NCBI GenBank assembly: GCA_017546145.1
Contig: JAFYXN010000004.1
Location: forward strand, 1 to 64,000
Direction of reading: 5' to 3'
Source: Clostridia bacterium
GTDB taxonomy: Bacteria > Bacillota > Clostridia > Monoglobales > Monoglobaceae
DNA length: 64,000 nucleotides
In this document: one piece after another, positions 564-19,945 of the stretch
Layout: each line of letters opens with the position of its first letter
Numbering within the stretch: the stretch's first letter is position 1
Notes under the pieces: generated by a model
What the model was told of the DNA's origin: nothing
What the model saw: the letters and a program-made list of their open reading frames with translations, nothing else
Database searches by the model: none
Program-made: the position numbers and the translations under genes

Positions 564-602
564 CTTCAAGTGGTATTTTTCTAACAAAAAAATATAAAAC
601 TA

Positions 603-631: not shown

Positions 632-668
632 GATACAAATTGATACTAAAATATATCAGGTGGTTTGA

Positions 669-1826
669 ATGGAAATTAAAATATTTGCAAAAATATTGAA
701 AGACAAAGCTTTTGTTGATTACAAAAAAATGAAATATAAATATGGTGAAGATTTTGATGCGTTTCTTAAAAATCTTGAAGAGCTGTATTATAAGCCGCTG
801 CCTATTTTGGATTTTGACGATGGAAATGTGGTTTTTATTGAAAATCATGCGAGGGTGAGCCAAAATACTGTAAAGCTTCTTTTAAGGGAGCAAAAACAAA
901 ATTACGGAATAAAGGCTGTAGAGGAAGAAATTATTGCGACATCGGCTATTGAAAGCATCGACTTCAGCCGCGACAGTGTACGGAATATCCTTAAAGGAAT
1001 GGCGCCAAAGGATGAGAACGAAACTCGAATAATGGGACTTAAAAAGGGTCTCGAATTTATTGCAGACACGGACAATAAAATCAGTGAAGAAAACCTTTAT
1101 AAGCTTTATATGATGACGGTTGGCGATTTTCTGGGGAAAGAGGACAGCCTACCGCATGGAAGTTTTTATCGTAATGATGCGGTTTATGTCGTTGGTGACG
1201 GTGTTGAACATACGGGGCTCAGTGCGAAGAAAGTGCCGGAATTTATGAAATCACTTATAGAATTTGCAAATGCTGAGGATGACATAAACGAGCTTATAAA
1301 AGCGGCAATTATTCATTTTTATCTTGCGTATGTTCATCCGTATTTTGATGGCAACGGAAGAATGGCAAGGCTTTTGCATTTATGGTTTTTGATTCAAAAA
1401 GGATATCGGTCTGCCTTGTTTATTCCGTTTTCAAGCAGAATAGAAAAAAGCAGAAAGTCATACTATGATGCCTATACCCTTATTGAAGAGAACAAAAAGT
1501 ACAGCGGCAAAATTGATGTTACCCCCTTTGTTTTGTATTTTATAGAAAATGTCTATGATAAAATGAATGAGGGAAACGCTGCCACCGAAACCTTTGAGGT
1601 ATATGAAGATGCCTTAAAACAAGGTAAAATAACCGAAAAGGAAGCAAAGCTTTGGAAGTTTGTGCTGTCATATTACGGCACGGACGAGTTTTCTACAAAA
1701 CAGCTTGAGAAGGATTTTGGAAATGCAGCTTATGCTACCATCCGCAGTTTCGTTTTGAAATTTGAAGAGCTTGGGTTGCTGACCTCAACTAAATACGGAG
1801 CGAGAATTAAATACAGGATTTTATAA
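669..1826 (+). CDS. Fic family protein
   Basis: A 385-aa Fic protein. Fic enzymes usually transfer AMP from ATP to a hydroxyl side chain of a target protein. The core motif HPYFDGNGR is at about residues 223-231, with the catalytic His at 223 and the anion-binding GNGR loop intact. An upstream TSAIES at 91-96 matches the inhibitory-helix pattern (S/T)xxxE(G/N) except that the last position is Ser, so autoinhibition is probable but atypical. The N-terminal 80 residues resemble the helical cap found before many Fic domains, and the C-terminal 80 residues look like a winged helix (DEFSTKQLEKDFG). It has its own promoter at 603-631 and a terminator at 1835. Fic proteins are common accessory genes on mobile elements, sometimes as toxins or phage-related factors. 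No antitoxin gene is visible beside it, and the target cannot be told from sequence. Confidence 0.9.
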   Translation: MEIKIFAKILKDKAFVDYKKMKYKYGEDFDAFLKNLEELYYKPLPILDFDDGNVVFIENHARVSQNTVKLLLREQKQNYGIKAVEEEIIATSAIESIDFSRDSVRNILKGMAPKDENETRIMGLKKGLEFIADTDNKISEENLYKLYMMTVGDFLGKEDSLPHGSFYRNDAVYVVGDGVEHTGLSAKKVPEFMKSLIEFANAEDDINELIKAAIIHFYLAYVHPYFDGNGRMARLLHLWFLIQKGYRSALFIPFSSRIEKSRKSYYDAYTLIEENKKYSGKIDVTPFVLYFIENVYDKMNEGNAATETFEVYEDALKQGKITEKEAKLWKFVLSYYGTDEFSTKQLEKDFGNAAYATIRSFVLKFEELGLLTSTKYGARIKYRIL

Positions 1827-1834
1827 TGCAATAT

Positions 1835-1870
1835 AAAACAGGCTGCCTCGTTATTGAGACAGTCTGTTTT
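1835..1870. terminator. Bidirectional terminator between convergent genes
   Basis: A 15-bp stem (1835-1849 with 1856-1870) has one G-U pair, one mismatch and a 6-nt loop, with an A-run on the left and a T-run on the right. It sits between the fic gene and the convergent minus-strand gene and suits both. Confidence 0.75.
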
Positions 1871-1871
1871 G

Positions 1872-3533
1872 TTATGCAAAGGATTCATACAATATTAACT
1901 CTGTCATTGACTCTATAAAATCAAAAAAGTCTTTGCTTTGAGAAGTGTTTTCGGATTTTTCGCTTATAAATTTCAATAGCTTTTCTTCGGAAACATCGAT
2001 ATCAATAAAGCATTTTTTGTTATTAGCTTTTCTGAGAACGGCTGTCGGGATGCCCGCTTCCTCAACCTCTTTAGCAAGTTTTGTGGGCTTTGACAACAAT
2101 TCAATATTATCTGATCCCATAGCAGCAGCGTAGCTTTTTAATGCGTTGCCAAATTTTTTTGTTTCTATGTACTTGCCTTGCTCTTTGTCACAGCAATCGT
2201 GAATAAAACTATGTATCAGTTCATCAAGTGCAAGGTCGCTATGCAGAGTCTGTCTTTCGCCATGTATTATATGTAAGCCATTTGCTGTTAAGTATAATTT
2301 CAGCCAGCTTATATCCTCGGTAGTTAAAAATTTCAAGTTGAAATTTTCAAGAGTGACAGTTTGGTAGGGTAAGTTCTTGAAAAATTCATTAAGTTCCGTT
2401 TCGTACTGAACAAGAGTAATCAAAGGACTATACTCACCATTTGTATACGGAATAAAGGGGTCTTCTTTTTCGGTTAGCTTTCGTCCATGCATAAGTTTCT
2501 TTACAGCAGAGTGGTTGATTTCTGAGAAATGTTTTTTGCTTACCATAAGACTGTTTATTTGAAGCAGTGAGTGATTTGCGTGATCCAAGGTTAGACTTTC
2601 AATGAGCTTTTGTCCCTTTTTTTCATAGATACTTGCAGAAGTTCTGTTGTCGCAAAGTATTGATAACAGTTTTGCAAAATTTTGTTTTCCTTTTCCGCAT
2701 ATACTCCATACGCATTTTGAGGGTAATTTTTCCACCAGCATTCTTGCAACAATTTCGGAAATAAGGTTTAATGTATCAACCGAGCCGCTCGTCATATCAT
2801 AAAGTGATTTCTTTATATTGTCTGAGGGGGTTCGGGATAAACTTCCAAGACTAATGTATGGGCTGTATGATAATTCTTTTGTTGCGTTTACATCGAATTT
2901 TGCAGTTTCCATAGCGGGGAGGTAGGACAGTTTACCTTCGGCAAAATTAACCGAATATTCATCTGTTTCAGTATCAGTTTGGGACTTATCCAACAGGTTC
3001 AAAAGCTCTTTTGCAAGACTTGATTTTGCAGCTTCACTTGCTACATAATGTCCTTTATTGTCTAAAACCAGGGATTCCATAAATTTGTCAGTAAGAAGCC
3101 TTTGTCCAACATATATTCTTTTATCATGGACGGAGATGTTTTGTATATCGTCAAAGAACGGCAACATAAATAAACCACATTGCCATTTGAAATTAAACAG
3201 GGCTTTGTAGTATGGTGTGATTTCCAGTTGTGATAAATAAAGATACAGGTTTTTGATTATACCTTCAATCAGCCCTTGGTGAAATGGAAGTCCCCCAAAG
3301 TATGCTTCGTGAAAGCGTAACAGGATTTTAGTGGATATTTCCTTGGTGCCAATTTCAATATTTGTTCCCAGGCATCTCAGGTTGTCACCCACCACATAAA
3401 AATATCTTTTGGGAGCATAAAGATATGAATTTTGATTCCCAATATATTGATGCAGACAGTTTTGATAATTTGCAAGGGCATTTTTGATTGATATTCTGCG
3501 TGCTGTATCTAACATGTTTTCCTTTTGAAACAT
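1872..3533 (-). CDS. Unrecognised 553-aa protein, possibly a divergent replication-type protein
   Basis: I do not recognise this family with confidence. The frame is open further upstream (to 3695), but the start is set at 3533 because GGAAGGTG lies just before that ATG and the upstream residues (IYKILYCIYPC) are not protein-like. The protein is soluble with no signal peptide. Its middle holds VWSICGKGKQNFAKLL (about residues 285-300), which has the look of a degenerate P-loop, followed by SLLQINSLMVSKKHFSEINH and a region around TLVQYETELNEFF. That order loosely recalls SF3-type phage or plasmid replication helicases, but the canonical GxxxxGK(S/T) is not present. It stands alone, convergent with fic and divergent from the recombinase. 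It could be a degenerate replication protein or an unrelated accessory protein. Confidence 0.6.
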   Translation of the reverse strand: MFQKENMLDTARRISIKNALANYQNCLHQYIGNQNSYLYAPKRYFYVVGDNLRCLGTNIEIGTKEISTKILLRFHEAYFGGLPFHQGLIEGIIKNLYLYLSQLEITPYYKALFNFKWQCGLFMLPFFDDIQNISVHDKRIYVGQRLLTDKFMESLVLDNKGHYVASEAAKSSLAKELLNLLDKSQTDTETDEYSVNFAEGKLSYLPAMETAKFDVNATKELSYSPYISLGSLSRTPSDNIKKSLYDMTSGSVDTLNLISEIVARMLVEKLPSKCVWSICGKGKQNFAKLLSILCDNRTSASIYEKKGQKLIESLTLDHANHSLLQINSLMVSKKHFSEINHSAVKKLMHGRKLTEKEDPFIPYTNGEYSPLITLVQYETELNEFFKNLPYQTVTLENFNLKFLTTEDISWLKLYLTANGLHIIHGERQTLHSDLALDELIHSFIHDCCDKEQGKYIETKKFGNALKSYAAAMGSDNIELLSKPTKLAKEVEEAGIPTAVLRKANNKKCFIDIDVSEEKLLKFISEKSENTSQSKDFFDFIESMTELILYESFA

Positions 3534-3768
3534 ATAATCACCTTCCTTTTTGAGTATATCACATCCCTCATCAAAAGTGTAGGAAAATTTGAAATGTAGG
3601 AAAAGTTTTTGTTTTCTATTATAGGATAGGCATGGATATATACAATACAATATTTTATAAATATACATACATATAGTTATAATATAAGATATCATATATC
3701 ACTTTCAAATAATTTGTAATGTTTTACAATCACACTTACATATTATTAAAATGAAGGAGGTGATATAT

Positions 3769-3882
3769 GTGGTTTTAACAAACACCTACATATCAAAAAA
3801 TAAAAAAGACTACGAGCAAAAACGTAATCTTATACATAGAAGATGCGTGCTGATACTTCGCTCAAGAAATGAGGGCAAGTAG
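3769..3882 (+). CDS. 37-aa micro-ORF ahead of the serine recombinase
   Basis: A small GTG-start frame (VVLTNTYISKNKKDYEQKRN and 17 more residues) has a very strong ribosome binding site, AGGAGG at 3755-3760, 8 nt upstream. It ends at a TAG only 2 nt before the recombinase ATG. The recombinase itself has only a weak GAGGGCA site, so coupled translation from this frame is likely. A competing ATG at 3767 would make only Met-Trp-Phe-stop. The peptide is basic with no known motif. It may be only a leader that sets the level of the recombinase. Confidence 0.5.
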   Translation: MVLTNTYISKNKKDYEQKRNLIHRRCVLILRSRNEGK

Positions 3883-3884
3883 TT

Positions 3885-5336
3885 ATGGATGCAATATACG
3901 CAAGACAGAGTCTTAATAAAAAAGACAGCCTCTCCATTGACGGACAAATTGAACTTTGCAAAAAACTTGCCGGAGAGGATGCGGCTATATTTAAGGACAA
4001 GGGCTTTTCAGGCAAGAACACAAAGAGACCTGCGTTTATGGAACTTATGGAGGCGGTTGAGGCAGGACAGGTGGAAAAAATTTATGTTTATCGCCTTGAC
4101 CGATTCAGCCGCTCCATTTCGGATTTCAGCAGAATCTGGGAATTGCTTGAGAAAAACGGTACACAGTTTCAATCCGTTACCGAGCAGTTTGATACATCAA
4201 CGCCAATAGGAAGGGCGATGCTTAATATCGTTATGACCTTTGCGCAGCTTGAACGCGAGACAACGGCAGACCGTGTAAAGGATAATTATATACATCGTTT
4301 TGATTTGGGGGCGTGGCCGGGAGGCCCTGCACCCTATGGTTTTGACCTTAATAAAATAACAGATGCCCTTGGAAAGGTAGCGTCTTCGCTTTCAATAAAT
4401 ATAGATGAAGCTGACATCGTAAAAAGAATTTTTGAAAGGTATGCCGAAAGGGGCACATCACTTCGTAGTGTCGCAAAAGAACTAATGGACGATAAAATTC
4501 ACGGACCCAAGAGAGCGGCTTGGGATAATGTGACTCTTTCAAGACTTTTGCACAGCCCCGTATACGTGAAAGCGAATGAGGATGTATATTGGCACTATAT
4601 TTCCTTGGGACTTAATATTTCAAATGACATATCAGATTTTGACGGAGTTCATGGATGCAACATCATGAGACAACGGGACAGAACAAGGAATAAGTATAAT
4701 TCACTTGAAAACCAACGACTTGCCGTGGCAAACCATGAGGGGTTTATAGATGCAAAGTTATGGCTCAGGGTTCAGGAAAAGCTTTCTTCCAACAAGCAGA
4801 TTTCTGTTGACAATGCGGGGAAATACAGTTGGCTTACGGGACTTTTAAAGTGTAAATGCTGCGGTTACGCGGTGAAAATAAATCACAGCAAGTCTGAAAA
4901 TCGGATATATCTCATCTGTTCAGGTAAGTCAAATCTGAAAATATGCAGCACAAAGATAAGTGTTGATATAAGAGAGCTTGAAGAAACGGTTGAAAAGGAG
5001 ATTGTTAAAGTCATAGACGAATGTTCTTTCGAGGATGTAGTGAATGTGGATACAGAAAGAGCGAGGGAAATTCTTGATATAGAGCAAAGGATTGATCGCC
5101 TTGTAAATGCACTGTCTGAGAGTAGCGAGGTATCTGCCGCTTACATATCAAAGCAGATTGACAGACTTCACAAGGAACGGGAAGGTTTGCTGTCAGAAAA
5201 GACACCAAAGCAAGGGGGAATTAAGAAAATTGATTTTGCCAAAGCATCTTTTGAGGATAAAAAGCTTATAGCAGCCCAATTCATTGAAAAGATTTTGCTT
5301 GATGGCGAAAACGCAGAAATTATTTGGAAAATATAG
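3885..5336 (+). CDS. Large serine recombinase (candidate integrase of the element)
   Basis: A 483-aa large serine recombinase. The N-terminal resolvase domain (1-140) has the nucleophile Ser9 in YARQS and the arginine cluster in YRLDRFSRS (Arg70, Arg73, Arg76). A recombinase domain follows (about 150-310). A zinc ribbon has candidate ligands Cys323, Cys325 or 326, Cys345 and Cys354. A C-terminal coiled coil starts near residue 365 (EELEETVEKEIVK, then IEQRIDRLV). All catalytic features are intact. These enzymes cut two short attachment sites with a 2-bp stagger and exchange strands by subunit rotation. The gene lies 3.3 kb inside the left end, and the element's joined ends show the palindromic 2-bp-core geometry this family needs. 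Direction reversal normally needs a partner; the HTH protein at 6030 is the obvious candidate. It probably depends on the micro-ORF just upstream for translation. Confidence 0.93.
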   Translation: MDAIYARQSLNKKDSLSIDGQIELCKKLAGEDAAIFKDKGFSGKNTKRPAFMELMEAVEAGQVEKIYVYRLDRFSRSISDFSRIWELLEKNGTQFQSVTEQFDTSTPIGRAMLNIVMTFAQLERETTADRVKDNYIHRFDLGAWPGGPAPYGFDLNKITDALGKVASSLSINIDEADIVKRIFERYAERGTSLRSVAKELMDDKIHGPKRAAWDNVTLSRLLHSPVYVKANEDVYWHYISLGLNISNDISDFDGVHGCNIMRQRDRTRNKYNSLENQRLAVANHEGFIDAKLWLRVQEKLSSNKQISVDNAGKYSWLTGLLKCKCCGYAVKINHSKSENRIYLICSGKSNLKICSTKISVDIRELEETVEKEIVKVIDECSFEDVVNVDTERAREILDIEQRIDRLVNALSESSEVSAAYISKQIDRLHKEREGLLSEKTPKQGGIKKIDFAKASFEDKKLIAAQFIEKILLDGENAEIIWKI

Positions 5337-5420
5337 CCTGATGATACTTAACGGTATCTGATGGCTTTATTTTTTATTAAATAATAAATGATATAACAAT
5401 ATAGTAAAATACAGGGCCCC

Positions 5421-5479
5421 GTGGGGAAGGATGTTAAATGCATTCTTCCCCGACTTGCGATCATAGATGGATAAATAAT
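5421..5479 (+). repeat. 59-bp imperfect direct repeat, copy A (gene-tail remnant)
   Basis: It matches 10266-10324 at 48 of 59 positions without gaps. In one frame it reads VGKDVKCILPRLAIIDG-stop, against VGKDVECIFPRLENISR-stop in copy B, where the sequence is the end of a small ORF. Both copies end in ATAAATAAT and both lie just downstream of a serine recombinase gene. Copy A has no start codon in frame, so it looks like the decayed tail of a second copy of the small gene at 10197. Confidence 0.75.
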
Positions 5480-5498
5480 ATATACAGGAGATGATAAA

Positions 5499-5985
5499 AT
5501 GGTAATATTAAAGATAGTAAACACTAAGGGTAAATACTATGATGAGAATTCAAGAGAACAGGTGTTAGGATATATATTAAATCATTATAAGACCCCCAAT
5601 GGATATATTGGAAGTATAGGGATAACAGGAGATAATTACGTTCAGGAAATGAAAGATGTGTCGCTAAACTTTGGGAAAGTTGATGGAGTACAGCTGAGAC
5701 ATTTTATAATATCCTTTGAAGGTTGGGAGGTAAAAGACCCAAAGATTGTATATGATAGGTCTTGACATTGCAAGATTTTTAGGTAGAGAATATCAGACGG
5801 TGTTTAGCGTACATGAAGATGCACAGCAGCTGCATATTCATTTGGTGATAAATTCTGTAAGTTTTATAGACGGACATAGATACAGGGGGACAAGAGCAGA
5901 GTTTTATGGACTTAAAAATTATATCAATATGGTTATTGGCAGATTTGGTATTGCTCCGGTAAGGTATATATCAGGTAAAGCATAA
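5499..5985 (+). pseudogene. Small relaxase/mobilisation nuclease, frameshifted
   Basis: Two overlapping frames make one relaxase-family protein of about 162 aa. The first (5499-5765) runs from MVILKIVNTKGKYYDENSRE to KIVYDRS. The second continues as IGLDIARFLGREYQTVFSVH and carries the metal-binding motif QLHIHLVINS (HxHxxxN). The switch falls at TATGATAGG near 5751-5759. Restoring one AT dinucleotide there gives KIVYDIGLDIARF, so a 2-bp slippage deletion is the simplest explanation. Relaxases nick oriT and lead the strand in mobilisation. Even repaired, this would be a short form lacking the long C-terminal region of conjugative relaxases. A good ribosome binding site (AGGAG at about 5486) precedes the start. 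If the shift is real, the element has lost this route of mobilisation; a sequencing or assembly error is the alternative. Confidence 0.75.
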
Positions 5986-6029
5986 ATTGTTTTTTACTTT
6001 CTTAACACAGAAATAAGGAGGTATGCATC

Positions 6030-6212
6030 ATGCAATCAGAATATATCGAATTAATCACAATAGATGAGCTTTGTGAGTTTTTGATGATAGGTCGCACAAC
6101 AGCATATAAGCTTTTGCAGTCACACGAACTGAAAGCATTCAAAATAGGCAAGGTGTGGAAGATATCAAAAGCATCTGTGGAGGAGTACATAAAAATACGC
6201 AGTAACCTGTAG
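6030..6212 (+). CDS. Excisionase-family HTH DNA-binding protein
   Basis: A 60-aa protein with a MerR-like winged HTH of the excisionase type. LITIDELCEFLMIGRTTAYK forms the recognition helix region, FKIGKVWKISKASVEEYIK forms the wing, and the pattern ends in the usual helix. It has a strong AAGGAGG site at 6015-6021. Proteins of this type bend att DNA and tip recombination toward excision, and many mobile elements keep one close to the relaxase, as here. It is the best candidate for the recombination directionality factor of the 3885-5336 recombinase, though that link is inferred from context. The gene ends inside a hairpin that probably stops its transcript. Confidence 0.85.
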   Translation: MQSEYIELITIDELCEFLMIGRTTAYKLLQSHELKAFKIGKVWKISKASVEEYIKIRSNL

Positions 6213-6224
6213 GGGGTTACTGCG
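6198..6224 (+). terminator. Hairpin overlapping the xis-like stop codon
   Basis: A perfect 10-bp stem, CGCAGTAACC (6198-6207) with GGTTACTGCG (6215-6224), holds the TAG stop in its loop. The run after it (TGTTGCGTTT) is only partly T-rich, so termination may be partial. Further on, 6292-6305 is the short palindrome CCGATTTCAATCGG ahead of the amidoligase gene. Confidence 0.55.
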
Positions 6225-6336
6225 TGTTGCGTTTATGCAATATTCCTTAAATTCACTTATATATTATCATTTTGTGTACATATACTGTGCATCCGATTTC
6301 AATCGGCAAATAGATAAAATATAGGAGGAAATTTAA

Positions 6337-7443
6337 GTGAAAGAAGAGAAATGCAGATACTGCGGAAAGGTGTTAACAAAAGAGGAACGTCATGAATTTG
6401 ACGGAAAAGTTATGTGTAAGACTTGTCTTGATGAAATGACATCGATTTGCACACATTGCGGTGAAAGATTGTGGAACGACGAAAATAGTGGTACGGGAGA
6501 TTTTGTATTATGCCAAAGATGCTATGACAATCATTATACGACTTGCGAACGGTGCGGACATATAATACACTATGATGCTGCACTGTATTTTGATGATGAG
6601 GATTATCCATATTGCAGCTGCTGTTATGATTTGGTGTCTAAGAATGAAATTATCCACGATTACGGATATAAGCCGGAGCCAATATTTTATGGCAATGACG
6701 ATATGTATTTAGGGGTAGAACTAGAAATTGACCGTGGCGGAGAAAGCTCTGATAATGCACAGAGGATTCTTGATGTCGCAAATTTTCAGGCAGAGCATAT
6801 TTACATAAAGCACGACGGAAGCATAGAGGACGGATTTGAAATGGTAACTCATCCTATGAGCCTTGATTATCATAAATCTGAAATGCCATGGCAAAAGATA
6901 TTTGATAAAGCTCTTGATATGGGTTACCGCTCCCATAAAACTTCAACCTGCGGGCTCCATATCCATGTGAGCCGTGATGCATTAGGTCCTGACCACGATG
7001 CACAGGAAGAAACAATAGCAAGAATAGTATATTTTGTAGAAGCTCATTGGAATGAGCTTCTTAAATTTTCCAGACGGACAGAGGCAAACATAATGCGCTG
7101 GGCATCGAGATATGGTATTGCAGAAGATACAAAGGCTACGTACGATAAAGCCAAGAAAGGCAGTTTTAACCGATATGTATGTGTAAATCTGCAAAATTAC
7201 AATACAGTAGAATTCAGAATTTTCAGAGGTACCCTCAAATATGAAACCTTTATGGCAACACTCGGGCTTGTGCACGAGATATGCGATAAAGCAATATCTG
7301 CAACAGATAAAGAGTTTGAAACTATGTGCTGGAGTGACTTTGTAAAAGGTATAAGCAAAGAGGACAAGCCTGAGCTTATTGCCTATCTCAAATCAAAAGA
7401 CATCTATATCAACGAGCCGGTAACCACAGGGGAGGAGGAATAA
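6337..7443 (+). CDS. Amidoligase with N-terminal zinc-finger array
   Basis: A 368-aa protein with a GTG start and AGGAGGA site. The first 110 residues hold four CxxC pairs with paired partner cysteines (CRYCGKVL, CTHCGERL, CERCGHII and others), resembling a LIM-like zinc array. From about residue 125 it follows the Amidoligase_2 family of the glutamine-synthetase/GCS fold: YLGVELEID (metal and ATP site), KHDGSIEDGFEMVTHPM, CGLHIHVS and VEFRIFRGTL. Family members are thought to use ATP to join a carboxylate to an amine, modifying peptides, cell wall or surface molecules. The next gene, a class-II glutamine amidotransferase 2 nt downstream, would supply ammonia or a matching amide transfer. This pairing is known from phages and mobile elements in Firmicutes, but the substrates are not established. 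All key motifs look intact. Confidence 0.88.
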   Translation: MKEEKCRYCGKVLTKEERHEFDGKVMCKTCLDEMTSICTHCGERLWNDENSGTGDFVLCQRCYDNHYTTCERCGHIIHYDAALYFDDEDYPYCSCCYDLVSKNEIIHDYGYKPEPIFYGNDDMYLGVELEIDRGGESSDNAQRILDVANFQAEHIYIKHDGSIEDGFEMVTHPMSLDYHKSEMPWQKIFDKALDMGYRSHKTSTCGLHIHVSRDALGPDHDAQEETIARIVYFVEAHWNELLKFSRRTEANIMRWASRYGIAEDTKATYDKAKKGSFNRYVCVNLQNYNTVEFRIFRGTLKYETFMATLGLVHEICDKAISATDKEFETMCWSDFVKGISKEDKPELIAYLKSKDIYINEPVTTGEEE

Positions 7444-7445
7444 AA

Positions 7446-8360
7446 ATGTGTTGTTTGTTTGGAATATATAATTACAGCGGAAGTGAAATAAAAGGACTTT
7501 CAAAGGTTACAAATTCCCTTGCAAGAGAAGCAACAGCAAGAGGCATGGATGCAACGGGAATTGCATATAACCACAAAGGCAATCTGCTTATACACAAAGA
7601 ACCAAAATCGGCATACAGTATTACATTCAGACATCCCGACAATGTAACGGCAATAATGGGACATACAAGGCATACAACCCAAGGGAATGAAAAGCATAAC
7701 TTTAACAATCATCCATTTCCGGGAAATTGCAAAAATTTGAAATTTGCCCTTGCTCATAACGGAATACTTATAAACGATAAATCTTTAAGATGGAATTTGA
7801 AACTGCCAAAGACCAAAATAGAAACCGATAGCTTTATTGCGGTGCAAATCCTTGAAAGCCAAAGGCAATTAAGTGATGAAAGCATAAAGTACATGGCGGA
7901 AAAGGTGGACGGCAGCTTTTCTTTTACCATTCTTGATACAAGTGATACCCTGTGGTTTGTAAAGGGGGATAGTCCTCTGTCTATTATTCATTTTCCAAAG
8001 CAAAAGGTCTATGTTTATGCCTCAACGGACGAGATTTTATACAAAGCACTTGTGGGAACGGAATTCTTTACAGAAATCAAAAACGGTGAATTTGAAGAAA
8101 TAGACATACAAGAGGGTCAGATAATGAAAATATTACCTGACGGCACGATTGTAACAAGCAGATTTAATTACATAAACGACTACTACGGTGACTATTGTTG
8201 GTGGCGATACGGAAGCAGCATATTGGGTGAGAGCACATACCTTGACGATTTAAAAAACATAGCCAAGGGTTATGGATATGATTCGGAAACAATAGATGAG
8301 CTTTTAAATTCCGGATTCACCACGGATGAGATTGAGGAGTATATTTATTGCTGTGAATAA
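7446..8360 (+). CDS. Class-II glutamine amidotransferase-like protein
   Basis: A 304-aa Ntn-hydrolase-type glutaminase domain (GATase class II, as in GlmS and PurF). Cys2 directly follows the initiator Met (MCCLFGIYNYSG) and would become the N-terminal nucleophile after Met removal. Further hallmarks are RGMDATGIAY, GHTRHTTQG (glutamine-binding arginine loop), LAHNGIL and TDSFIAVQIL. There is no synthase domain: after about residue 240 comes only a short acidic, tyrosine-rich tail. It starts 2 nt after the amidoligase stop and is surely co-transcribed and translationally coupled with it. The natural reading is that it releases ammonia from glutamine for the amidoligase or works on the same peptide substrate; that is inference. 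Confidence 0.88.
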   Translation: MCCLFGIYNYSGSEIKGLSKVTNSLAREATARGMDATGIAYNHKGNLLIHKEPKSAYSITFRHPDNVTAIMGHTRHTTQGNEKHNFNNHPFPGNCKNLKFALAHNGILINDKSLRWNLKLPKTKIETDSFIAVQILESQRQLSDESIKYMAEKVDGSFSFTILDTSDTLWFVKGDSPLSIIHFPKQKVYVYASTDEILYKALVGTEFFTEIKNGEFEEIDIQEGQIMKILPDGTIVTSRFNYINDYYGDYCWWRYGSSILGESTYLDDLKNIAKGYGYDSETIDELLNSGFTTDEIEEYIYCCE

Positions 8361-8386
8361 ATGGAATTTTATAAGGAAGAATGCAT

Positions 8387-8415
8387 TTTACTATACATTG
8401 CAAAAAGTATATAAT
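8387..8415 (+). promoter_or_regulatory. Promoter for the Mor-like gene
   Basis: TTTACT (8387-8392) and TATAAT (8410-8415) are 17 nt apart, in the 80-nt gap before the Mor-like gene. Confidence 0.55.
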
Positions 8416-8441
8416 CTAGACAGATTTTTCTGGAGGTGATA

Positions 8442-8696
8442 TTGATTGGCGTAAAAAATATCAATGCTTTAAATGAAGTGTATAGGGAAATGGTGGACCT
8501 TGTTGGCTATGACAATACCATGCTTATTTATACACACTTTAAAGGGCAGCAGGTGACCTTTCCAATAAAGCTTTATAATTCGGAATACATAAAGAAACTA
8601 CTAAAGGAGCAGTATGACGGAACAAATGTTAAGGCTTTAGCGCGAAGGTACAATTATTCAGAAAGATGGATAAAAGAATTACTAAAGAAAGGGTAG
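8442..8696 (+). CDS. Mor-family transcription activator-like protein
   Basis: An 84-aa protein resembling the C-terminal part of phage Mu Mor/C-type activators. A dimerisation-type region (REMVDLVGYDNTMLIYTHFK) is followed by the HTH TNVKALARRYNYSERWIKEL. I place the start at the TTG at 8442, 5 nt after GGAGG. The open frame also has a GTG at 8436, but that overlaps the ribosome binding site itself. Mor-like proteins activate phage middle or late promoters, and similar stand-alone copies occur on Firmicutes mobile elements near recombinase genes. Its target may be the adjacent resolvase or excision genes, but no binding site can be assigned. Confidence 0.75.
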   Translation: MIGVKNINALNEVYREMVDLVGYDNTMLIYTHFKGQQVTFPIKLYNSEYIKKLLKEQYDGTNVKALARRYNYSERWIKELLKKG

Positions 8697-8705
8697 AATG
8701 TAGAA

Positions 8706-9271
8706 ATGAAAGTATCAAAAAGAATTATTATAGCAATAGTAGTTTCGTTGGTTGTATTTTTGCTTTATCAATGCACAAAGCAGGAGGAAAATGTAGAGCC
8801 TGCCAAAAGTCCGGCTGAAATTGTGACATCGGCAGAATCTGTTTATGATGCATTAAAGGGATTGGAAAAGGCAGGCATTGAATTTGAAATGAAAAGATGT
8901 TCAAAGAGCACCCGGGGTACTATGACGGAAGTGATTCTGAAGATTCTCTAATGGACAGAATGGATTTTGCTCTCGCTTATGATGAGGTTGCGAATAACCT
9001 TGAAGAAAATGGCGACAAGCTTATACTTCTCCCAAATGTTTCTGTAATTTCAATAAGCAGAAGCGAAACAGAAACAGGAATGACAATGGTTGAACTTTTG
9101 GATGATGATTGGAATTATTATCTGATGGTATCGGCAGACAGATTTGAAAATGTGGAAGAGGGCGAATATATTGGCGGATTTTATACTCCAGCAGGCAAAA
9201 TGACCTTTGTTAATAAGGAAGGCGAAGTAAGTGAGGGTATAGTTGGAGCAACGGCGTTGCTTGGAAAATAA
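8706..9271 (+). pseudogene. Membrane-anchored or lipoprotein-like protein, frameshifted
   Basis: Two frames read as one protein of unknown family. The first (8706-8951) starts MKVSKRIIIAIVVSLVVFLL, a membrane anchor followed by a Cys (YQCTKQ) that could be lipidated, then a short helical region ending GIEFEMKR. The second (from about 8888 to 9271) continues MFKEHPGYYDGSDSEDSLMD to a C-terminal beta-rich domain. Adding one A in the A-run at 8892-8895 gives EFEMKKMFKEHPGYYDG, a smooth join, so a single-base deletion is likely. There is no ribosome binding site before the inner ATG at 8897, which argues against two separate genes. No canonical slippery heptamer for programmed -1 frameshifting is present. 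Function unknown. Confidence 0.6.
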
Positions 9272-9287
9272 CAAAGGGGGATTTTGA

Positions 9288-9458
9288 ATGAGTATCAAAA
9301 CATGGTGCATAATCGGAATGATTGTATCGGCGGTTGTAGGCTTTATCAGAACAAGAGGTCGTGAGGGGGCAGGCAAAACTGCGATAATAATATTACACAC
9401 AATAGCGTTTGTTATATTTCTTTTGGGTGCAATAGTGTTAAGCAATCAGGGAATGTAA
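9288..9458 (+). CDS. Small 56-aa membrane protein
   Basis: It has a good start (AAAGGGGG 6-7 nt before the ATG) and two hydrophobic stretches, WCIIGMIVSAVVGFI and IIILHTIAFVIFLLGAIVL, separated by a basic loop RTRGREGAGK. This is a helical hairpin membrane protein with the loop probably cytoplasmic. It starts 16 nt after the frameshifted anchored protein, so the two may work together. No family recognised. Confidence 0.65.
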   Translation: MSIKTWCIIGMIVSAVVGFIRTRGREGAGKTAIIILHTIAFVIFLLGAIVLSNQGM

Positions 9459-9471
9459 TAAATAATAAGAA

Positions 9472-9568
9472 CCAATAGGGTATACCCTGGTGGGACACTT
9501 GGGATGCGTTTCAATAAAGTCACATTCGGCTTTTTGGAACGCTCCTTTTATTTTTGTGACCCTATTGG
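9472..9568 (+). promoter_or_regulatory. Candidate res site or operator of the small resolvase
   Basis: Three related 14-mers lie just upstream of the resolvase gene: CCAATAGGGTATAC (9472-9485), TCAATAAAGTCACA (9511-9524) and, inverted, TGTGACCCTATTGG (9555-9568). The outer pair shares an exact 10-bp inverted repeat (CCAATAGGGT with ACCCTATTGG). The inner and right copies match at 11 of 14 positions as an inverted pair. A perfect 12-bp palindrome, AGGGTATACCCT, lies at 9477-9488. Resolvase res sites typically hold several inverted subsites beside the gene and double as its autoregulatory operator. Confidence 0.55.
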
Positions 9569-9586
9569 GACGGAGGAAGGATTTTT

Positions 9587-10162
9587 ATGCGTATTGGTTA
9601 TATAAGAGTAAGCACAGCAGAGCAAAATACAGCACGGCAGGAGTTGTTGATGCAGGAACTTGGCGTGGATGAAATATATATTGACAAAACAAGCGGAAAG
9701 AACAAGGATAGGCCTGAACTTCAAAAAATGATTGAGTATGTTCGAAGGGGTGATGTGGTAATTGTGGAGTCAATCAGCCGTTTTGCGAGAAACACCAAGG
9801 ATTTGCTTGAGCTTATCGAAAAACTTTCTGAAAAGGAAGCTGAGTTTGTGTCAAAAAAAGAGGCAATAGACACATCGACACCTACCGGAAAGTTTATGCT
9901 GACAGTTTTTGGTGCAGTTGCGGAACTTGAAAGGGAATATATGCTTTCACGGCAAAAAGAGGGGATAGAGATTGCTAAATTGGATGGCAAATATAAAGGC
10001 AGAAAGCCCAAAGAACTTCCTGCGGATTTTGAATCTGTAATAAAGAAATGGCAAAAGGGTGAGATAACTGCTGTCAAAGCAATAAAAAAGCTTGGAATCA
10101 GCAAAAGCACGTTTTATCGGTTGGTTAAGAAAACCAATAAAGGTATTGAGAAAATTATTTAA
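9587..10162 (+). CDS. Small serine recombinase (resolvase/invertase family)
   Basis: A 191-aa resolvase. Ser9 lies in GYIRVSTAEQ. The catalytic arginines lie in ESISRFARNTKDL. A long E helix includes FMLTVFGAVAELEREYMLSR, and a C-terminal HTH (AVKAIKKLGISKSTFYRLVK) binds DNA. The length is typical of Tn3-type resolvases and DNA invertases, unlike the 483-aa integrase upstream. The start is supported by GGAGGAAGG 8-10 nt before the ATG. Repeats at 9472-9568 are its likely binding sites. Possible roles are resolving multimers of the excised circle, inverting a segment, or being a relic of a nested element whose edges are the 59-bp repeats. All catalytic residues are present. Confidence 0.9.
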   Translation: MRIGYIRVSTAEQNTARQELLMQELGVDEIYIDKTSGKNKDRPELQKMIEYVRRGDVVIVESISRFARNTKDLLELIEKLSEKEAEFVSKKEAIDTSTPTGKFMLTVFGAVAELEREYMLSRQKEGIEIAKLDGKYKGRKPKELPADFESVIKKWQKGEITAVKAIKKLGISKSTFYRLVKKTNKGIEKII

Positions 10163-10196
10163 GCGATGTATAATGAGAAAACAGGAGGGATGTTCA

Positions 10197-10319
10197 ATGA
10201 AGGTACAGCTTTTACAGTGCAAGAGAGGGAAAAAAGAGTTTGCCCCACAAATGCCGATTCAGGCGGTGGGCAAGGATGTTGAATGCATTTTTCCCCGGCT
10301 TGAAAACATAAGCAGATAA
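10197..10319 (+). CDS. 40-aa small ORF after the resolvase
   Basis: The sequence starts MKVQLLQCKRGKKEFAPQMP, has an AGGAGGG site 8-9 nt upstream, and ends in VGKDVECIFPRLENISR. The tail is repeated, with the frame kept, at 5421-5479 after the other recombinase gene. A repeated and partly conserved coding tail suggests a real gene family linked to recombinases, or the surviving end of a larger gene. Two Cys residues are present; no known domain. Confidence 0.45.
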   Translation: MKVQLLQCKRGKKEFAPQMPIQAVGKDVECIFPRLENISR

Positions 10320-10324
10320 ATAAT
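10266..10324 (+). repeat. 59-bp imperfect direct repeat, copy B
   Basis: This is the partner of 5421-5479 (48 of 59 identical). It is the 3' end of the small ORF at 10197 plus five bases. The two copies enclose the relaxase-to-resolvase module of about 4.8 kb. Confidence 0.75.
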
Positions 10325-10378
10325 GTTGAAAAATAATTTTTATGTTGATAAAGCGTTTTTAAGGTGATTAGTGCATTA

Positions 10379-10437
10379 TTTCAACAGGTTTGGAATGATA
10401 TTTTATATTGAATTGAATTTTACTGTTTTGTAAAATT
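10379..10437 (+). promoter_or_regulatory. Shared upstream block of the glycan operons, copy 1
   Basis: This stretch shares ordered blocks with 23668-23725: TTTCAACAG, a gap of 11-12 nt, ATTTTATATTGAA, a gap of 8-10 nt, TACTG, and TGTAAAATT. It lies 44 nt before the first gene of the intracellular enzyme operon. The block probably holds promoter elements and an activator site, most likely for the AraC-family regulator encoded at 21338-23527. Confidence 0.65.
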
Positions 10438-10480
10438 ATAATAGAAAATTGTATATTGAAAATGATAGGAAGAGGGACAA

Positions 10481-12256
10481 ATGAGTATGGGGAAAATGCA
10501 CATAAATATTTTACACCGAATAGATACGGGAGACACAGAGTGCAGCGTTTTTGAGGCGCTCGTCTATCAACAGGACGCAGTTCATAAGCTTGGAATGAGA
10601 GCAACGTTGCTTTTAGGAACAGAGGCGTTGTACAGTGAGGCTTGTGTTGAATATGCTCTATTACAGGAAAAGACGCATGGTGATGAATTGGGTTTGAATT
10701 TGCACGGACTCACAGCGAATGGGCTTGGAGAAAGATTTGGTATTAAGGATTCGATGGTTTATCTTATGCCTTATGAAAGGAAGATAAAGCTACTGTTTTT
10801 TGTGATGGAGTTGTTTAAAGAAAAAATAGGACATTACCCTAAGTCTGTGGTATCTTATGTGCTTGATGCACGGACATTAAACTGGCTTCACCAAACTTAT
10901 CCGACAGTGAAAGCGGCAATAACAAATTGCTTTGAAGAAGGCGTAAAAATGTTTTACGGAAACCAAAATCAGTGGTACTTGTTCAGTGACGGAGGTCCAT
11001 GGGGGGCTTACTATCCGTCAAAAGCTAATTCGTTGGTTGAGGCAAAAGACAGAGAGGATTATTGCGGCATTGTGGGGCTTCCTCACTTAAACAGGGATAT
11101 GCTTATGGCTATCACCAGCCGTGATGATTTGTTTTCATCACATCCTCACAATGTAATGAGGGCAAAAGCCTATGATTTTGACAATATGGAAATGCCATAT
11201 ATGGACAGATTTGTTGACCAATGGGTTAAGCAGCTTGAATACAATGACTACATTTACTACAATGTGTTTGTTGGACCGTTATGGCTTACGGATGAGAGTA
11301 TGTTGGACGAATCCGGTGCGTTTGCAAGAGAACTATATACACAAAATATGACGTACTTAAAGAAAAAAGTGGATGAGGGCGTTGCTCAAATATCAACGAT
11401 GAGTGAATTTGCAGAATGGATGGAGGCAAATGTTGAGATTGGGACTCCTGAAGTAAATAAATGGCAGGATATTATTTGTGGCTCGAAGCGGGAGGTGTAT
11501 TGGTATGTTGACCCATATATAAGGGTGGCATTGGATGCTAATATTGCGGGGGCAATTTGCGATTTACGTCCACACGCAGGCAGATTGGTGAGAGACCTTG
11601 GAAATGATACACCAAATCTTTGTAATATGAACTATCCATTTTTGATTTCTTGTGAACACAGAGGAGGAGTGCATGATGGTTCAATTCATACATACAGGTT
11701 GGAAATTAACGGAAAAGAAACTGATTTAGCTCTTAAAAGGACAAGTATCAGCCCGGGGACGGATGAGAATGGCAACAAATTTGTTAAATTTGAACCGGTT
11801 ACATACACATTGGATAACATAAGGGCAACGGTTGAGAGCAAGTATACGTTTATGGGAAATGGTAAAATAAAAATTTCAAGAAAGCTTGTTTCGTGTTCTA
11901 ACCCTAATGCGGTTGTAAAAATAAAGGAATATCACTGCGGATGTTGGGGGACAACAACTTATCCTGAGGATATGCGGGGAATTGATTTGATTGCATATTC
12001 AAATGATGGTGATGAAGAAAAAATTAATTTTGAATATTTGGGCAGGGAACTGAGAACAGATACTCCAAAGACAATGAGAGCGTTAATCCCTCAATTAAAT
12101 ATAACAGTGGATATGGAGCCGATTACGGATGGCACAGAGGGGAAAGTTACAGAGGGGTGGATGTTCAGCCCATATTACCGTATGCAGTTGACAAAAGAAT
12201 TAAAGGAAAGTGAGGCACTTGAATCATGGTTGAAAATCCGACAGGCAGAATACTAA
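10481..12256 (+). CDS. NodB-like barrel protein of unknown glycan role
   Basis: A 591-aa cytoplasmic protein that heads the enzyme operon. The N-terminal half looks like a polysaccharide-deacetylase/GH57-like (beta/alpha) barrel: HRIDTGD near residues 12-18 is a possible metal or catalytic motif, GMRATLLLGTEAL follows, and HGDELGLNLHG at 66-76 matches the barrel's H-rich strand. Later come SYVLDARTLNWLHQTYP and GIVGLPHLNRDM. From about residue 370 the sequence becomes a beta-sandwich (CEHRGGVHDGSIHTYRLEIN). There is no signal peptide. I do not recognise the family, and the exact chemistry (deacetylation, hydrolysis or other) is open. The next gene overlaps its end by 31 nt, and the MBL, GH31, GH78 and GH42 genes follow in the same direction, so it probably acts on imported oligosaccharides. 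Confidence 0.7.
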   Translation: MSMGKMHINILHRIDTGDTECSVFEALVYQQDAVHKLGMRATLLLGTEALYSEACVEYALLQEKTHGDELGLNLHGLTANGLGERFGIKDSMVYLMPYERKIKLLFFVMELFKEKIGHYPKSVVSYVLDARTLNWLHQTYPTVKAAITNCFEEGVKMFYGNQNQWYLFSDGGPWGAYYPSKANSLVEAKDREDYCGIVGLPHLNRDMLMAITSRDDLFSSHPHNVMRAKAYDFDNMEMPYMDRFVDQWVKQLEYNDYIYYNVFVGPLWLTDESMLDESGAFARELYTQNMTYLKKKVDEGVAQISTMSEFAEWMEANVEIGTPEVNKWQDIICGSKREVYWYVDPYIRVALDANIAGAICDLRPHAGRLVRDLGNDTPNLCNMNYPFLISCEHRGGVHDGSIHTYRLEINGKETDLALKRTSISPGTDENGNKFVKFEPVTYTLDNIRATVESKYTFMGNGKIKISRKLVSCSNPNAVVKIKEYHCGCWGTTTYPEDMRGIDLIAYSNDGDEEKINFEYLGRELRTDTPKTMRALIPQLNITVDMEPITDGTEGKVTEGWMFSPYYRMQLTKELKESEALESWLKIRQAEY

Positions 12257-12417
12257 GATGCCCGGAATGCTTTGCAAAGGATATAGATGTGTTTTTGCAT
12301 TATGATGAGGCAGAAGACGAATTTTATTGCTGCAAATGTTGTTTTACGGGCGACATAGACCGTGTTAAAAAGAACATGGAGGACTTTATAGCAAAAAAAT
12401 ATCCAAAGCGAGGATAG
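12226..12417 (+). CDS. Small zinc-ribbon protein
   Basis: A 63-aa protein with CPEC (about residues 12-15) and CCKCC (about 35-39), a rubredoxin-like or zinc-ribbon knuckle pair, separated by an acidic stretch. The ATG at 12226 lies inside the 3' end of the preceding gene, so it is coupled to it by a 31-nt overlap. It could bind the NodB-like protein or nucleic acid. No family recognised. Confidence 0.6.
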   Translation: MVENPTGRILRCPECFAKDIDVFLHYDEAEDEFYCCKCCFTGDIDRVKKNMEDFIAKKYPKRG

Positions 12418-12441
12418 TATAAAAGGAGAGAGTGTTTGTTT

Positions 12442-13272
12442 ATGAAATATAAGTTTTACGGAACGGCAGCAGCCGAAGGTATTCCTGCGATATTTTGCGA
12501 ATGTGAAACATGTAAAAGGGCATGGGAAAAGGGCGGAAAGAATATAATGACAAGAAGTCAATCGGTAATTGATGATACATTGGGGATAGATTTTCCTGCT
12601 GATACCTATTTACATATATTGAATTATGGACTTCCTGTAACAGATATATCTACATTTATTATAACACATAAACATAGTGACCATTTTTATGTGAATGACT
12701 TTTTTATGCATTCTCCGGGATATGCGTATGTGCCGGAAGACAAAGAAATAGATATTTATACAACAAAGTTGGGATATGATTATGCTGCAGAAGCCTTGGT
12801 TGGTGCATTTGGAGTTAGTGTACGTTGCCATCTTATTGAGGACTTTGTTCCGTTTGTTACAAAGGAGGGGTATAAAGTAACGCCTCTCAAAGCGGACCAT
12901 TGTGTTGATGCGGTAATCTTTCTCATAGAAAAAGACGGAAAATGCGTGCTTCATTCAAATGATACAGGGTACTATCCCAAAGAAACATGGGACTGGCTTG
13001 AGAAGAACCGAACGTATATAAACTTTGCTGAGTTTGATTGTACAATGTGTGGATTTAATACTGAAAACGACAGACATCATAACCATTCAAATTTTTCAAC
13101 TGTGGAAAATATAAAAAGGCGACTTGAGAAAATGGGATGTATTAATGAACAAACTATTTGTGTTTTAAATCATTTTTCTCATAATTATGGAATGATTTAC
13201 GACGATTTAAAGAAATATGGTGATGCAAAAGGGTATCTTACTGCGTACGATGGTTTGGAAGTAAATTTTTAA
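12442..13272 (+). CDS. PhnP-like MBL-fold metallohydrolase
   Basis: A 276-aa metallo-beta-lactamase-fold hydrolase. It opens with GTAAAEGIPAIFCECETCKRA, the cysteine-containing N-terminus found in PhnP-like phosphodiesterases. It has the metal motif THKHSDHF (HxHxDH), a later KADHCVDA histidine, and NDTGYYPKE with the bridging Asp. PhnP enzymes open cyclic phosphates of ribose; this branch often sits in sugar loci, where its substrate is unclear. The ATG at 12442 is chosen; a TTG two codons upstream (12436) has slightly better spacing to the AAAGGAGAG site. It lies between the zinc ribbon and the GH31 gene in one operon. Confidence 0.8.
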   Translation: MKYKFYGTAAAEGIPAIFCECETCKRAWEKGGKNIMTRSQSVIDDTLGIDFPADTYLHILNYGLPVTDISTFIITHKHSDHFYVNDFFMHSPGYAYVPEDKEIDIYTTKLGYDYAAEALVGAFGVSVRCHLIEDFVPFVTKEGYKVTPLKADHCVDAVIFLIEKDGKCVLHSNDTGYYPKETWDWLEKNRTYINFAEFDCTMCGFNTENDRHHNHSNFSTVENIKRRLEKMGCINEQTICVLNHFSHNYGMIYDDLKKYGDAKGYLTAYDGLEVNF

Positions 13273-13298
13273 GTATGATAAAACAGGATGTGCAATAA

Positions 13299-15722
13299 AT
13301 GAGAATAAAAGAGAAATACCAATACAAAACTACTCCAAAAGCTGATGAAAAGGCAGTTATTGTTGGTGACAAATATCGTTTTACGGTTTTGACTTCACGG
13401 CTTTTGAGAATTGAATACAGTGAAACAGGATATTTTGAAGATCGTGCAACACAAACGGTTATAAACCGGTGTTTTGATGTTCCTGAATTTACCTGCTCAG
13501 ACAGTAATGGAATAGTTATAATTACTACAGAGAACGTAGAGCTTATATATACAAAGGAGGCTTTTTCGCAGAACAGCCTTAGCTTAAAGTATGTAGGGAA
13601 AAATTCCGGAGTAAAGGCGGGGTTAATGTCAACGCATTGGTACTTTGGCGTAAATGAAAATACTAATCTTAAGGGTACTGCCAGAACTCTTGATGGGGTA
13701 GATGGTGAGTGTTCTTTGGAAGACGGAATAATGAGCAAGGGTCCTGTTACAGTGCTTGATGACAGTAAAGCTCTTATTATTTGCGATGACGGATGGGTAG
13801 AGCCACGAAAAGAAAAGGTTATTGATCAATACCTGTTCTGCTATGGCGATATAGAGAAGAAGTATGATTATAAGGGTTGTCTTCAGGATTATTACAGATT
13901 AACAGGCAAGCCACCTATGATTCCAAGATTTGCACTTGGCAATTGGTGGAGCAGATATTATGCTTATACTCAAGAGGAATATCTGAAGTTGATGGACAGG
14001 TTTAAGAAAGAGGATATTCCGTTCAGTGTTGGTGTTATAGATATGGATTGGCATCATGTTAAAATTGACTCAGCTTTTGGAACGGGATGGACAGGGTACA
14101 CGTGGAATAAAGAGCTGTTTCCTGATCCTGAGTCCATGATTGAGAGCTTGCGTGATGCGGGGGTTACGGTAAGTCTTAATTTGCATCCGCAAGAAGGTGT
14201 CGGCCCTCATGAAAAGGCTTATGAAGAAATGGCAAAGGCTATGGGAATAAATCCTGTAAGCGGCAAAAGTGTTCCTTTTGAGATAGAAAATCCGAAATTT
14301 GCAGAAAACTATTTTGATATTCTGCATCATCCTCTTGAAAAACAAGGTATAAGGTTTTGGTGGATAGATTGGCAGCAAGGAAATACTACACGCATACCTG
14401 GTCTTGATCCTTTGTGGATGCTTAATCATTTTCACTATATTGATAATGATAATGAAAACAGAAGGGGGCTTTTGTTTTCGCGTTATGCAGGCCCGGGAAG
14501 TCACAGGTATCCGGTTGGATTTTCAGGCGATACACTTATTACGTGGGAATCTCTTAAGTTTCAACCGTATTTTACAGCAAATGCGTCAAATATAGGCTAT
14601 GGATGGTGGAGCCATGATATTGGGGGGCACATGTTTGGGTACAGAGACCAAGAGCTTGCTGCAAGGTGGGTTCAGTTTGGAACGTTTTCACCAATTAACA
14701 GGCTACATAGTACCGACAGTGAGTTTTTGGGGAAAGAACCTTGGAAGTTTAATAAGATTTCGGAAGCTTCCATGAAAAAGTTTTTGAAATTGCGGCATGA
14801 GCTTATTCCGTATATTTACACTATGAACTATCGTGCATCGGAATTTGGAGAGCCGCTTGTTCAGCCGTTATACTACAACTATCCCTACAACGAGGCATTC
14901 AGTGTGAAAAATGAATATTTGTTTGGAAGTGAGATGATTGTATCTCCTATTACTTCTCACTCAGATAGTCAGACAACTATGGGAAGTGTTAAGACATATC
15001 TTCCTGATGGGGTTTGGTATGATTTCTTTAACAATCTGAGGTATGAGGGAGGACGGTACATTACAATGTACCGTGATTTATATGAGATGCCCGTTTTGGT
15101 AAAGGCGGGAGGTATTGTGCCTATGACAAACCTGCACCATGTAAACGATATTGAAAATCCACAGGATATGCGAATAAAGGTTTTTGCAGGCAATAACAAT
15201 ATGTTTGAGCTTTATGAAGATGATGGTGAAACAAACCGATATAAAAAAGGACATTATGCTATTACAAAAATGCAGTTATGCTGGGGTGAAAATTCTACAT
15301 TTACAGTTTTTGCTCCAAAGGGAGAGCTTTCGGTTATTCCTGAAAACCGGAATTATGAAATAGAGTTTATTGGAATAAAGGATTGTAAAAATATTGCTGT
15401 ATCAGAGGACGGAAAGACAAAGCATTTTTCTGTATCAGTTGGCACAAGTTCAATATTTGTGTCGGTGGATAATGTGCAGGGAGAGCTGGTAATTTCGTTT
15501 AAGTCGCCTTTGGAATTAGCGGAAAACAATGTGGAAGATCGGCTGCATACTATTATTGAACGCTTTGAAAATATACAGAATTACTACAAGGATGAAATGA
15601 TGGCTATTATAAAAAGCGAAAAATCAACAGTTAATGTGTTGAGCCGATTGATGCAAGTGGATGTCGGAAAGAATATTTTAAATGCTATAACAGAAATTAT
15701 AACGGCGTCTGAGTATAGGTAA
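13299..15722 (+). CDS. Glycoside hydrolase family 31 (alpha-glucosidase/alpha-xylosidase type)
   Basis: An 807-aa cytoplasmic GH31 enzyme. An N-terminal beta-sandwich (1-200) leads to the (beta/alpha)8 domain from about 215 (FALGNWWSRYYAYTQEEY). The catalytic nucleophile is Asp357 in FWWIDWQQGN and the acid/base is Asp411 in GFSGDT. Substrate-shaping residues include GVIDMDWHH, GYGWWSHDIGGH and FSPINRLHS. C-terminal beta domains follow, then a 70-residue helical extension (EDRLHTIIERFENIQNYYKD) that is not usual in the family. GH31 enzymes act on alpha-linked glucose, xylose, galactose or sulfoquinovose. WIDWQQG rather than the common WxDMNE marks a divergent subgroup, so the linkage cannot be named. 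It lies in an operon with rhamnosidase- and galactosidase-type genes. Confidence 0.9.
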   Translation: MRIKEKYQYKTTPKADEKAVIVGDKYRFTVLTSRLLRIEYSETGYFEDRATQTVINRCFDVPEFTCSDSNGIVIITTENVELIYTKEAFSQNSLSLKYVGKNSGVKAGLMSTHWYFGVNENTNLKGTARTLDGVDGECSLEDGIMSKGPVTVLDDSKALIICDDGWVEPRKEKVIDQYLFCYGDIEKKYDYKGCLQDYYRLTGKPPMIPRFALGNWWSRYYAYTQEEYLKLMDRFKKEDIPFSVGVIDMDWHHVKIDSAFGTGWTGYTWNKELFPDPESMIESLRDAGVTVSLNLHPQEGVGPHEKAYEEMAKAMGINPVSGKSVPFEIENPKFAENYFDILHHPLEKQGIRFWWIDWQQGNTTRIPGLDPLWMLNHFHYIDNDNENRRGLLFSRYAGPGSHRYPVGFSGDTLITWESLKFQPYFTANASNIGYGWWSHDIGGHMFGYRDQELAARWVQFGTFSPINRLHSTDSEFLGKEPWKFNKISEASMKKFLKLRHELIPYIYTMNYRASEFGEPLVQPLYYNYPYNEAFSVKNEYLFGSEMIVSPITSHSDSQTTMGSVKTYLPDGVWYDFFNNLRYEGGRYITMYRDLYEMPVLVKAGGIVPMTNLHHVNDIENPQDMRIKVFAGNNNMFELYEDDGETNRYKKGHYAITKMQLCWGENSTFTVFAPKGELSVIPENRNYEIEFIGIKDCKNIAVSEDGKTKHFSVSVGTSSIFVSVDNVQGELVISFKSPLELAENNVEDRLHTIIERFENIQNYYKDEMMAIIKSEKSTVNVLSRLMQVDVGKNILNAITEIITASEYR

Positions 15723-15758
15723 ATTAAGAGCCATATATTTTAAAGGGATGATAAGGTT

Positions 15759-17888: not shown

Positions 17889-17913
17889 GCAGAGCGGCAA
17901 AGGAGCGATTTTA

Positions 17914-19944: not shown

Positions 19945-19945
19945 A

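Follow-up and report, generated by a model that had tools for sequence, protein, structure and literature searches.

A conserved amidoligase and class-II glutaminase gene pair on an integrated element of a Clostridia bacterium

Introduction

The 64,000-nt stretch of DNA analysed here (the window), from a gut bacterium, carries neighbouring genes for an amidoligase (AL) and a free-standing class-II glutaminase (GAT), located near one end of a 48-kb integrated element. The two form a real, conserved pair under strong purifying selection, and many other mobile elements and phages carry such a pair. The reading preferred here, with moderate confidence, is that AL and GAT work as a single unit, most probably an amide synthase of two subunits that depends on glutamine and acts on a carboxylate of a peptide or protein.

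The pairing itself is already known. Amidoligase–GATase neighbours have been described in LUZ24-like phages (PMC3890496), in OM43 phages (PMC10580990) and in Pseudoalteromonas phages, where a role in peptidoglycan was proposed (PMC5498523); amidoligases have also been reported in prophages of Clostridium clostridioforme (PMC11318856). As cited in PMC5498523 and PMC10580990, the pair has been predicted since 2009, and the phage proposals mostly trace to that study (Iyer et al. 2009). Phage papers citing it place the pair in podoviruses, Marvin and OM43 phages, the usual guess being peptidoglycan modification. The literature searched names no substrate for the family, and the few open-licence papers found for DUF960 or for the Amidoligase_2 name or accession gave no sign of a finger-bearing Clostridia form with DUF960. 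This form differs in the zinc fingers of its ligase and in having no ATP-grasp, cyclotransferase or second ligase gene nearby. It often has a DUF960 gene upstream and a small serine resolvase gene downstream and, at some loci including the window, an operon-specific leader that is absent from Rfam.

The integrated element

In the window a pdaB-type polysaccharide deacetylase gene is split by an integrated element of about 48.1 kb (about 553-48650; Table 1). The same gene is uninterrupted in the host's closest relatives (G007, G006, G005, G004 and G002), so the intervening DNA is regarded as one integrated unit. The junction sequences form an imperfect palindrome, matching what is expected of serine-recombinase att sites, and the large serine recombinase is the probable integrase of the element. 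Other insertions or remnants lie at the same site in G001 and beside the AL-GAT-resolvase cassette of locus L070. The pair had been placed on an integrative element in a preliminary description; this is confirmed, and the element is now given its full extent.

Several further features of the element were observed. A 59-nt direct repeat (81%; 5421-5479 and 10266-10324) flanks the relaxase-AL-GAT-resolvase segment, its second copy forming the end of the 40-aa ORF. A Fic-domain protein (669-1826; PADLOC SoFic, 4e-39) is encoded at the attR end, and the recombinase gene is adjoined by that of a 607-aa protein (1872-3695, minus strand) without a Pfam or convincing NCBIfam match. The long cargo at 10481-48555, its genes judged by eye, resembles a set for carbohydrate use, with glycoside hydrolases, SLH-domain surface proteins, an alpha-galactosidase-like protein and an MFS transporter. 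The split gene, with flanks at 187-552 and 48605-49177, encodes a PdaB-type sporulation deacetylase and the host genome has spo0A; the element may be a skin-like element that is excised in sporulation.

Table 1. Features of the integrated element and its junctions (window positions)
Feature	Position	Strand	Basis or remark
3' remnant of pdaB-type deacetylase gene (attR side)	187..552	-	aa 177-250 at 328-549(-)
Whole integrated element	553..48650		ends from split pdaB-type gene
Large serine recombinase (XisF/Ccr-like)	3885..5336	+	Pfam Resolvase + Recombinase + Zn_ribbon_recom; NCBIfam XisF 3e-43, below cut-off
Short relaxase-domain gene, broken into two frames (5499-5765, 5746-5985)	5499..5985	+	ORFs and Pfam
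HTH_17 excisionase-like protein	6030..6212	+	E 1e-14
Operon leader motif TATATATTAT-N5-TG-arm-CCG..CGG-CAAATAGA	6252..6318	+	copies upstream of operon in relatives; no Rfam family
Amidoligase AL: LIM-like zinc fingers and GS/YbdK-fold ligase	6337..7443	+	PF12224, PHROG 16683, model fold
Three four-cysteine zinc knuckles of AL (residues 6-96)	6352..6624	+	conserved CxxC pairs, LIM-like matches
GS/YbdK-fold ligase domain of AL (residues 119-358)	6691..7410	+	predicted model; VIA-align Z 12.8 to 1tt4, rmsd 3.9 over 215 residues
Free-standing class-II glutaminase GAT	7446..8360	+	GATase_6; Cys2 at 7449-7451; tail ends in EIEE-x-Y-like motif
Mor-like transcription regulator	8436..8696	+	Pfam Mor, E 4e-8
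Small serine resolvase	9587..10162	+	related gene often directly after GAT in relatives
40-aa ORF	10197..10319	+	start common to relaxase-like gene of sister genome (L023:8642-9118), then diverges
5' remnant of pdaB-type deacetylase gene	48628..49177	-	aa 1-179 at 48641-49177(-); includes attL half-site CACTGGCAACAGTTGGAA (48628-48645)

The amidoligase

AL is a protein of 368 aa, read from a GTG start preceded by AGGAGG at 6323-6328. It matches Amidoligase_2 (PF12224) at 29.9 bits against a cut-off of 22 and PHROG 16683 at 7e-92. Its AlphaFold model (mean pLDDT 91) has the glutamine-synthetase-like carboxylate-amine ligase fold of Amidoligase_2: in structure alignment the ligase domain also resembles YbdK (Z 12.4) and glutamine synthetases (Z about 12), and GmaS and YbdK are among its Foldseek matches at E of about 1e-4. 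Profile-profile alignment with glutamine synthetase (hhalign) gave no significant match. The motifs GVELE, DGS-x5-E, CGLHIH and EFR are invariant or nearly so in 70 sequences, as is N284; among their residues E128 and E130 (GVELE), E168 (DGS...E), H208 and H210 (CGLHIH) and E292 (EFR) are invariant, and R294 (EFR) is at least 90% conserved. None of these motif residues is missing from AL. The motifs resemble the metal and ATP motifs of glutamine synthetase, so far as individual residues can be mapped by motif and overall fold.

The N-terminal region contains six CxxC pairs (C6/9, 27/30, 38/41, 59/62, 70/73 and 93/96), whose spacing is that of three four-cysteine zinc knuckles. The pairs are at least 90% conserved among 70 diverse homologues and invariant in 12 close relatives. 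The AL profile matches LIM domains in the PDB at 3e-4, and the finger region of the predicted model resembles LIM pairs. The zinc-finger array of the preliminary description is thus borne out, but it is not, as had been supposed, unusual: nearly all bacterial and most viral relatives in the clade have fingers.

The class-II glutaminase

GAT (304 aa) matches GATase_6 at 38.7 bits against a cut-off of 27. It begins with the Cys nucleophile of a class-II glutamine amidotransferase (Met-Cys start), and its glutamine site has the expected Arg (R75), Asn-Gly (within H104-N105-G106) and Asp (D128). All these residues are unchanged across 42 homologues, and the catalytic residues line up with those of human GFAT. 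The best PDB relatives are GFAT and PurF. No synthase domain was found, in agreement with the preliminary description, which had also taken both active sites to be intact; judged by their conserved residues, the two proteins indeed look catalytically competent. The C-terminus of GAT (about 8240-8357) is a conserved tail (IDELL..GF..DEIEEYIY) in the bacterial clade.

Pairing, co-inheritance and selection

AL and GAT lie on the same strand, 2 nt apart, as first described. Their pairing was surveyed in two scans, the first covering bacterial and archaeal genomes and the second viral contigs; the best 80 loci of each form a sample that leans towards close relatives. GAT lies directly downstream of AL on the same strand at 72 of the 80 bacterial loci, and at 76 when tblastn is included, which recovered GAT genes missed in ORF calling at L082, L092, L122 and L125. 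One of the remaining loci is too short; at L109 GAT is present and the AL frame was missed; at L071 AL and GAT share one frame; and at L046 AL stands without GAT. The L071 arrangement was considered as a fusion, and is probably a frameshift, since the Cys of GAT would not be N-terminal. In viruses GAT adjoins AL at 61 of 72 loci with a deeper profile, leaving about 15% of AL loci without a recognised neighbouring GAT. The partner is therefore kept in most relatives, although the single closest copy to the window (L046/L023) has lost GAT; the 3' end of its AL is also altered.

The two genes have diverged together (r = 0.88 over 66 loci). Where a resolvase is present (45 loci), the distance correlation is 0.91 for AL and GAT, compared with 0.38 for AL and the resolvase. 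In close pairs dN/dS is mostly 0.02-0.12, for AL and GAT alike, and is 0.08 for the window AL against L046; the near-identical L112 and L114 carry too few changes for a judgement. AL is found in 19 of 391 Clostridia genomes, a patchy distribution of the kind expected for mobile genes. A membrane-like small protein of about 50 aa is encoded between AL and GAT at the Ruminococcus loci L083, L084, L095, L104, L106 and L112-L115. A simple complementary pattern in phages, with zinc knuckles on either AL or GAT, was looked for and not seen; many phages have knuckles in both.

A proposed reaction and its main rival

In the proposed mechanism GAT would use its N-terminal Cys nucleophile to convert glutamine to glutamate and ammonia, while AL would phosphorylate a carboxylate with ATP; the ammonia, or another amine, would then attack the activated carboxylate to form an amide. 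The LIM-like fingers of AL would bind the target, which is probably a protein or peptide. The two proteins would presumably form a physical complex, with ammonia passing from one to the other and the chemistry running in the direction of synthesis.

Enzymes with the GS/YbdK ligase fold are able to take free amines as direct substrates, and some class-II GATase-like proteins act as amidohydrolases (EgtC, DUG3). Both points count against an amide synthase, as do the AL genes that lack a neighbouring GAT, in L046/L023 and in viruses. The main rival is a ligase-plus-hydrolase pair of the EgtA/EgtC or PuuA/PuuD type, in which AL would attach a gamma-glutamyl or similar group and GAT, as an amidohydrolase, would remove or trim it, one writing or protecting and the other erasing or deprotecting. 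EgtA/EgtC, of ergothioneine synthesis, combines a GCS2-type ligase with a class-II GATase-like partner, although, unlike AL-GAT, it belongs to a metabolic pathway with further genes. Such a pair would suit the fold of AL, which is nearest to YbdK/GCS2 and GmaS, enzymes acting on glutamate or amines, as well as its nearest NCBIfam model, YbdK (below cut-off), and the wide divergence of viral GATs (16-23% identity to the window GAT). Against this, the best matches of bacterial-clade GAT are the true glutaminase domains of GlmS and PurF, and the ligase-plus-hydrolase explanation is considered possible though unlikely.

For the amide synthase, a functional analogy is offered by MurT-GatD, a two-subunit, glutamine-dependent enzyme of peptidoglycan amidation that joins an ATP-using ligase to a separate glutaminase (PMC3267633). 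The likeness is one of working principle and homology is not claimed: MurT belongs to the Mur ligases and GatD to the class-I GATases, whereas GAT is of class II.

Associated genes and the operon leader

A DUF960 gene lies directly upstream of AL at 34 of 74 testable bacterial loci, and also at 4 viral loci. Among the 391 Clostridia genomes, nine of 17 DUF960 genes neighbour AL and a tenth neighbours a broken AL. The C-terminus of DUF960 (E-Y) is invariant in 24 sequences, and the depupylase Dop is among the fold matches of AL. These observations would fit a peptide-tagging system in which a small protein is attached or amidated by AL and DUF960 serves as modifier or substrate. The window pair, however, has no DUF960 beside it, nor is there one over the cut-off in the host genome; DUF960 also occurs without AL, two such genes lying in SCC-like contexts (L214 and L216); its distance correlation with AL is 0.77, below the 0.93 of AL-GAT; and its fold search gave only one clear match, 2r41 from Enterococcus faecalis (Z 14.9), and no ubiquitin fold. 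Tagging of the Pup/PafA/Dop type, moreover, uses a small modifier with a C-terminal Gln or Glu, whereas the DUF960 of the relatives ends in Tyr. A tagging role is considered highly improbable. DUF3846-like genes were seen near AL-GAT at the DUF960-free loci L082, L088, L092, L097, L108 and L123.

A small serine resolvase gene is present at 49 of the 80 bacterial loci, often right after GAT. In one genome the arrangement leader-AL-GAT-resolvase occurs in three copies of about 3.08 kb, 79-83% identical and with different flanks, two of which have a recognised DUF960 ORF; the cassette may be an independently moving unit.

The leader motif (TAYATATTAT-N5-TG-arm-CCG-loop-CGG-CAYATAGA) is found upstream of the operon in the window and in about a dozen relatives. 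A regular expression for it gave 11 matches in 2.0 Mb, all adjoining the operon, and none in a Markov control; because it was built from the motif copies themselves, the majority of the 11 give no independent support, and the informative part is that no match lies away from the operon. An Rfam search returned no family. The sequences look hairpin-like by eye, but RNAalifold on a MAFFT alignment gave no pairs and the arms align poorly, for which reason no RNA structure is claimed.

A more specific form of the amide synthase reading may be drawn, in which a glutamine-dependent ligase, directed by the LIM-like fingers to a specific protein of the host or the element (DUF960, perhaps, or one of its partners), would amidate that protein or link it by an isopeptide bond. 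The system would be controlled by its own leader and would have spread as a cassette of about 3 kb that is complete in itself and includes a serine resolvase. This reading is speculative and, taken as a whole, improbable.

Roles in host defence and in element maintenance had also been suggested for the pair and have found no support here. No PADLOC model (2023 library) matches AL, GAT or DUF960, although absence there does not exclude defence, and restriction-modification genes are only occasional neighbours. An association with defence islands was considered and set aside: the neighbours are very diverse, and in a count of these neighbours alone each methyltransferase model matches at most 3 of 125 proteins.

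Relation to phage systems

The podovirus cassette (LUZ24 gp16-gp22 and phiEco32-like phages; Iyer et al. 2009 and Hardies et al. 2013, as cited in PMC5498523 and PMC10580990) has an Amidoligase_2-type ligase followed by a class-II GATase, the same order as in the window. LUZ24 gp18 shows AL-like ligase motifs by eye (GFEVELE, GDGSL, CSTHLH and SIEFRG), and the LUZ24 GATase matches the window-type GAT profile at 54.5 bits. The LUZ24 ligase, in contrast to AL, has no zinc fingers and is unmatched by the AL profile, and its GATase, at 510 aa, is longer and has a C-terminus rich in cysteine. Relatives of AL occur in Marvin (gp105/gp106) and the OM43 phages (MEP401/402), at 27-30% identity, that of MEP402 being directly followed by an annotated GATase; these ligases are longer and lie in a phage context, in which DUF960 or a resolvase was not seen.

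For phiEco32-like and other podoviruses the published guess is that the pair modifies the cell wall (PMC5498523, PMC10580990 and PMC11318856). Applied to the window, AL and GAT would keep out competing phages by changing the peptidoglycan, or some other surface polymer, of the host. The COOH-NH2 ligase, RimK-like ATP-grasp and cyclotransferase genes that accompany the pair in LUZ24 are, however, not seen here: a Pfam scan found no ATP-grasp, gamma-glutamyl cyclotransferase or second COOH-NH2 ligase among the window genes at 3.9-10.2 kb, nor are they among the 25 commonest of the 90 Pfam families in the 125 neighbour proteins. The LIM-like fingers, furthermore, suggest a macromolecular partner. 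Wall modification is regarded as decidedly unlikely for this pair.

Implications

With two genes, or in some cases three, the Clostridia form is compact. It is also strongly conserved and often met on gut mobile elements, which makes it well suited to a search for the substrate. Concrete handles for that search are provided by its conserved fingers, the link to DUF960 and the leader.
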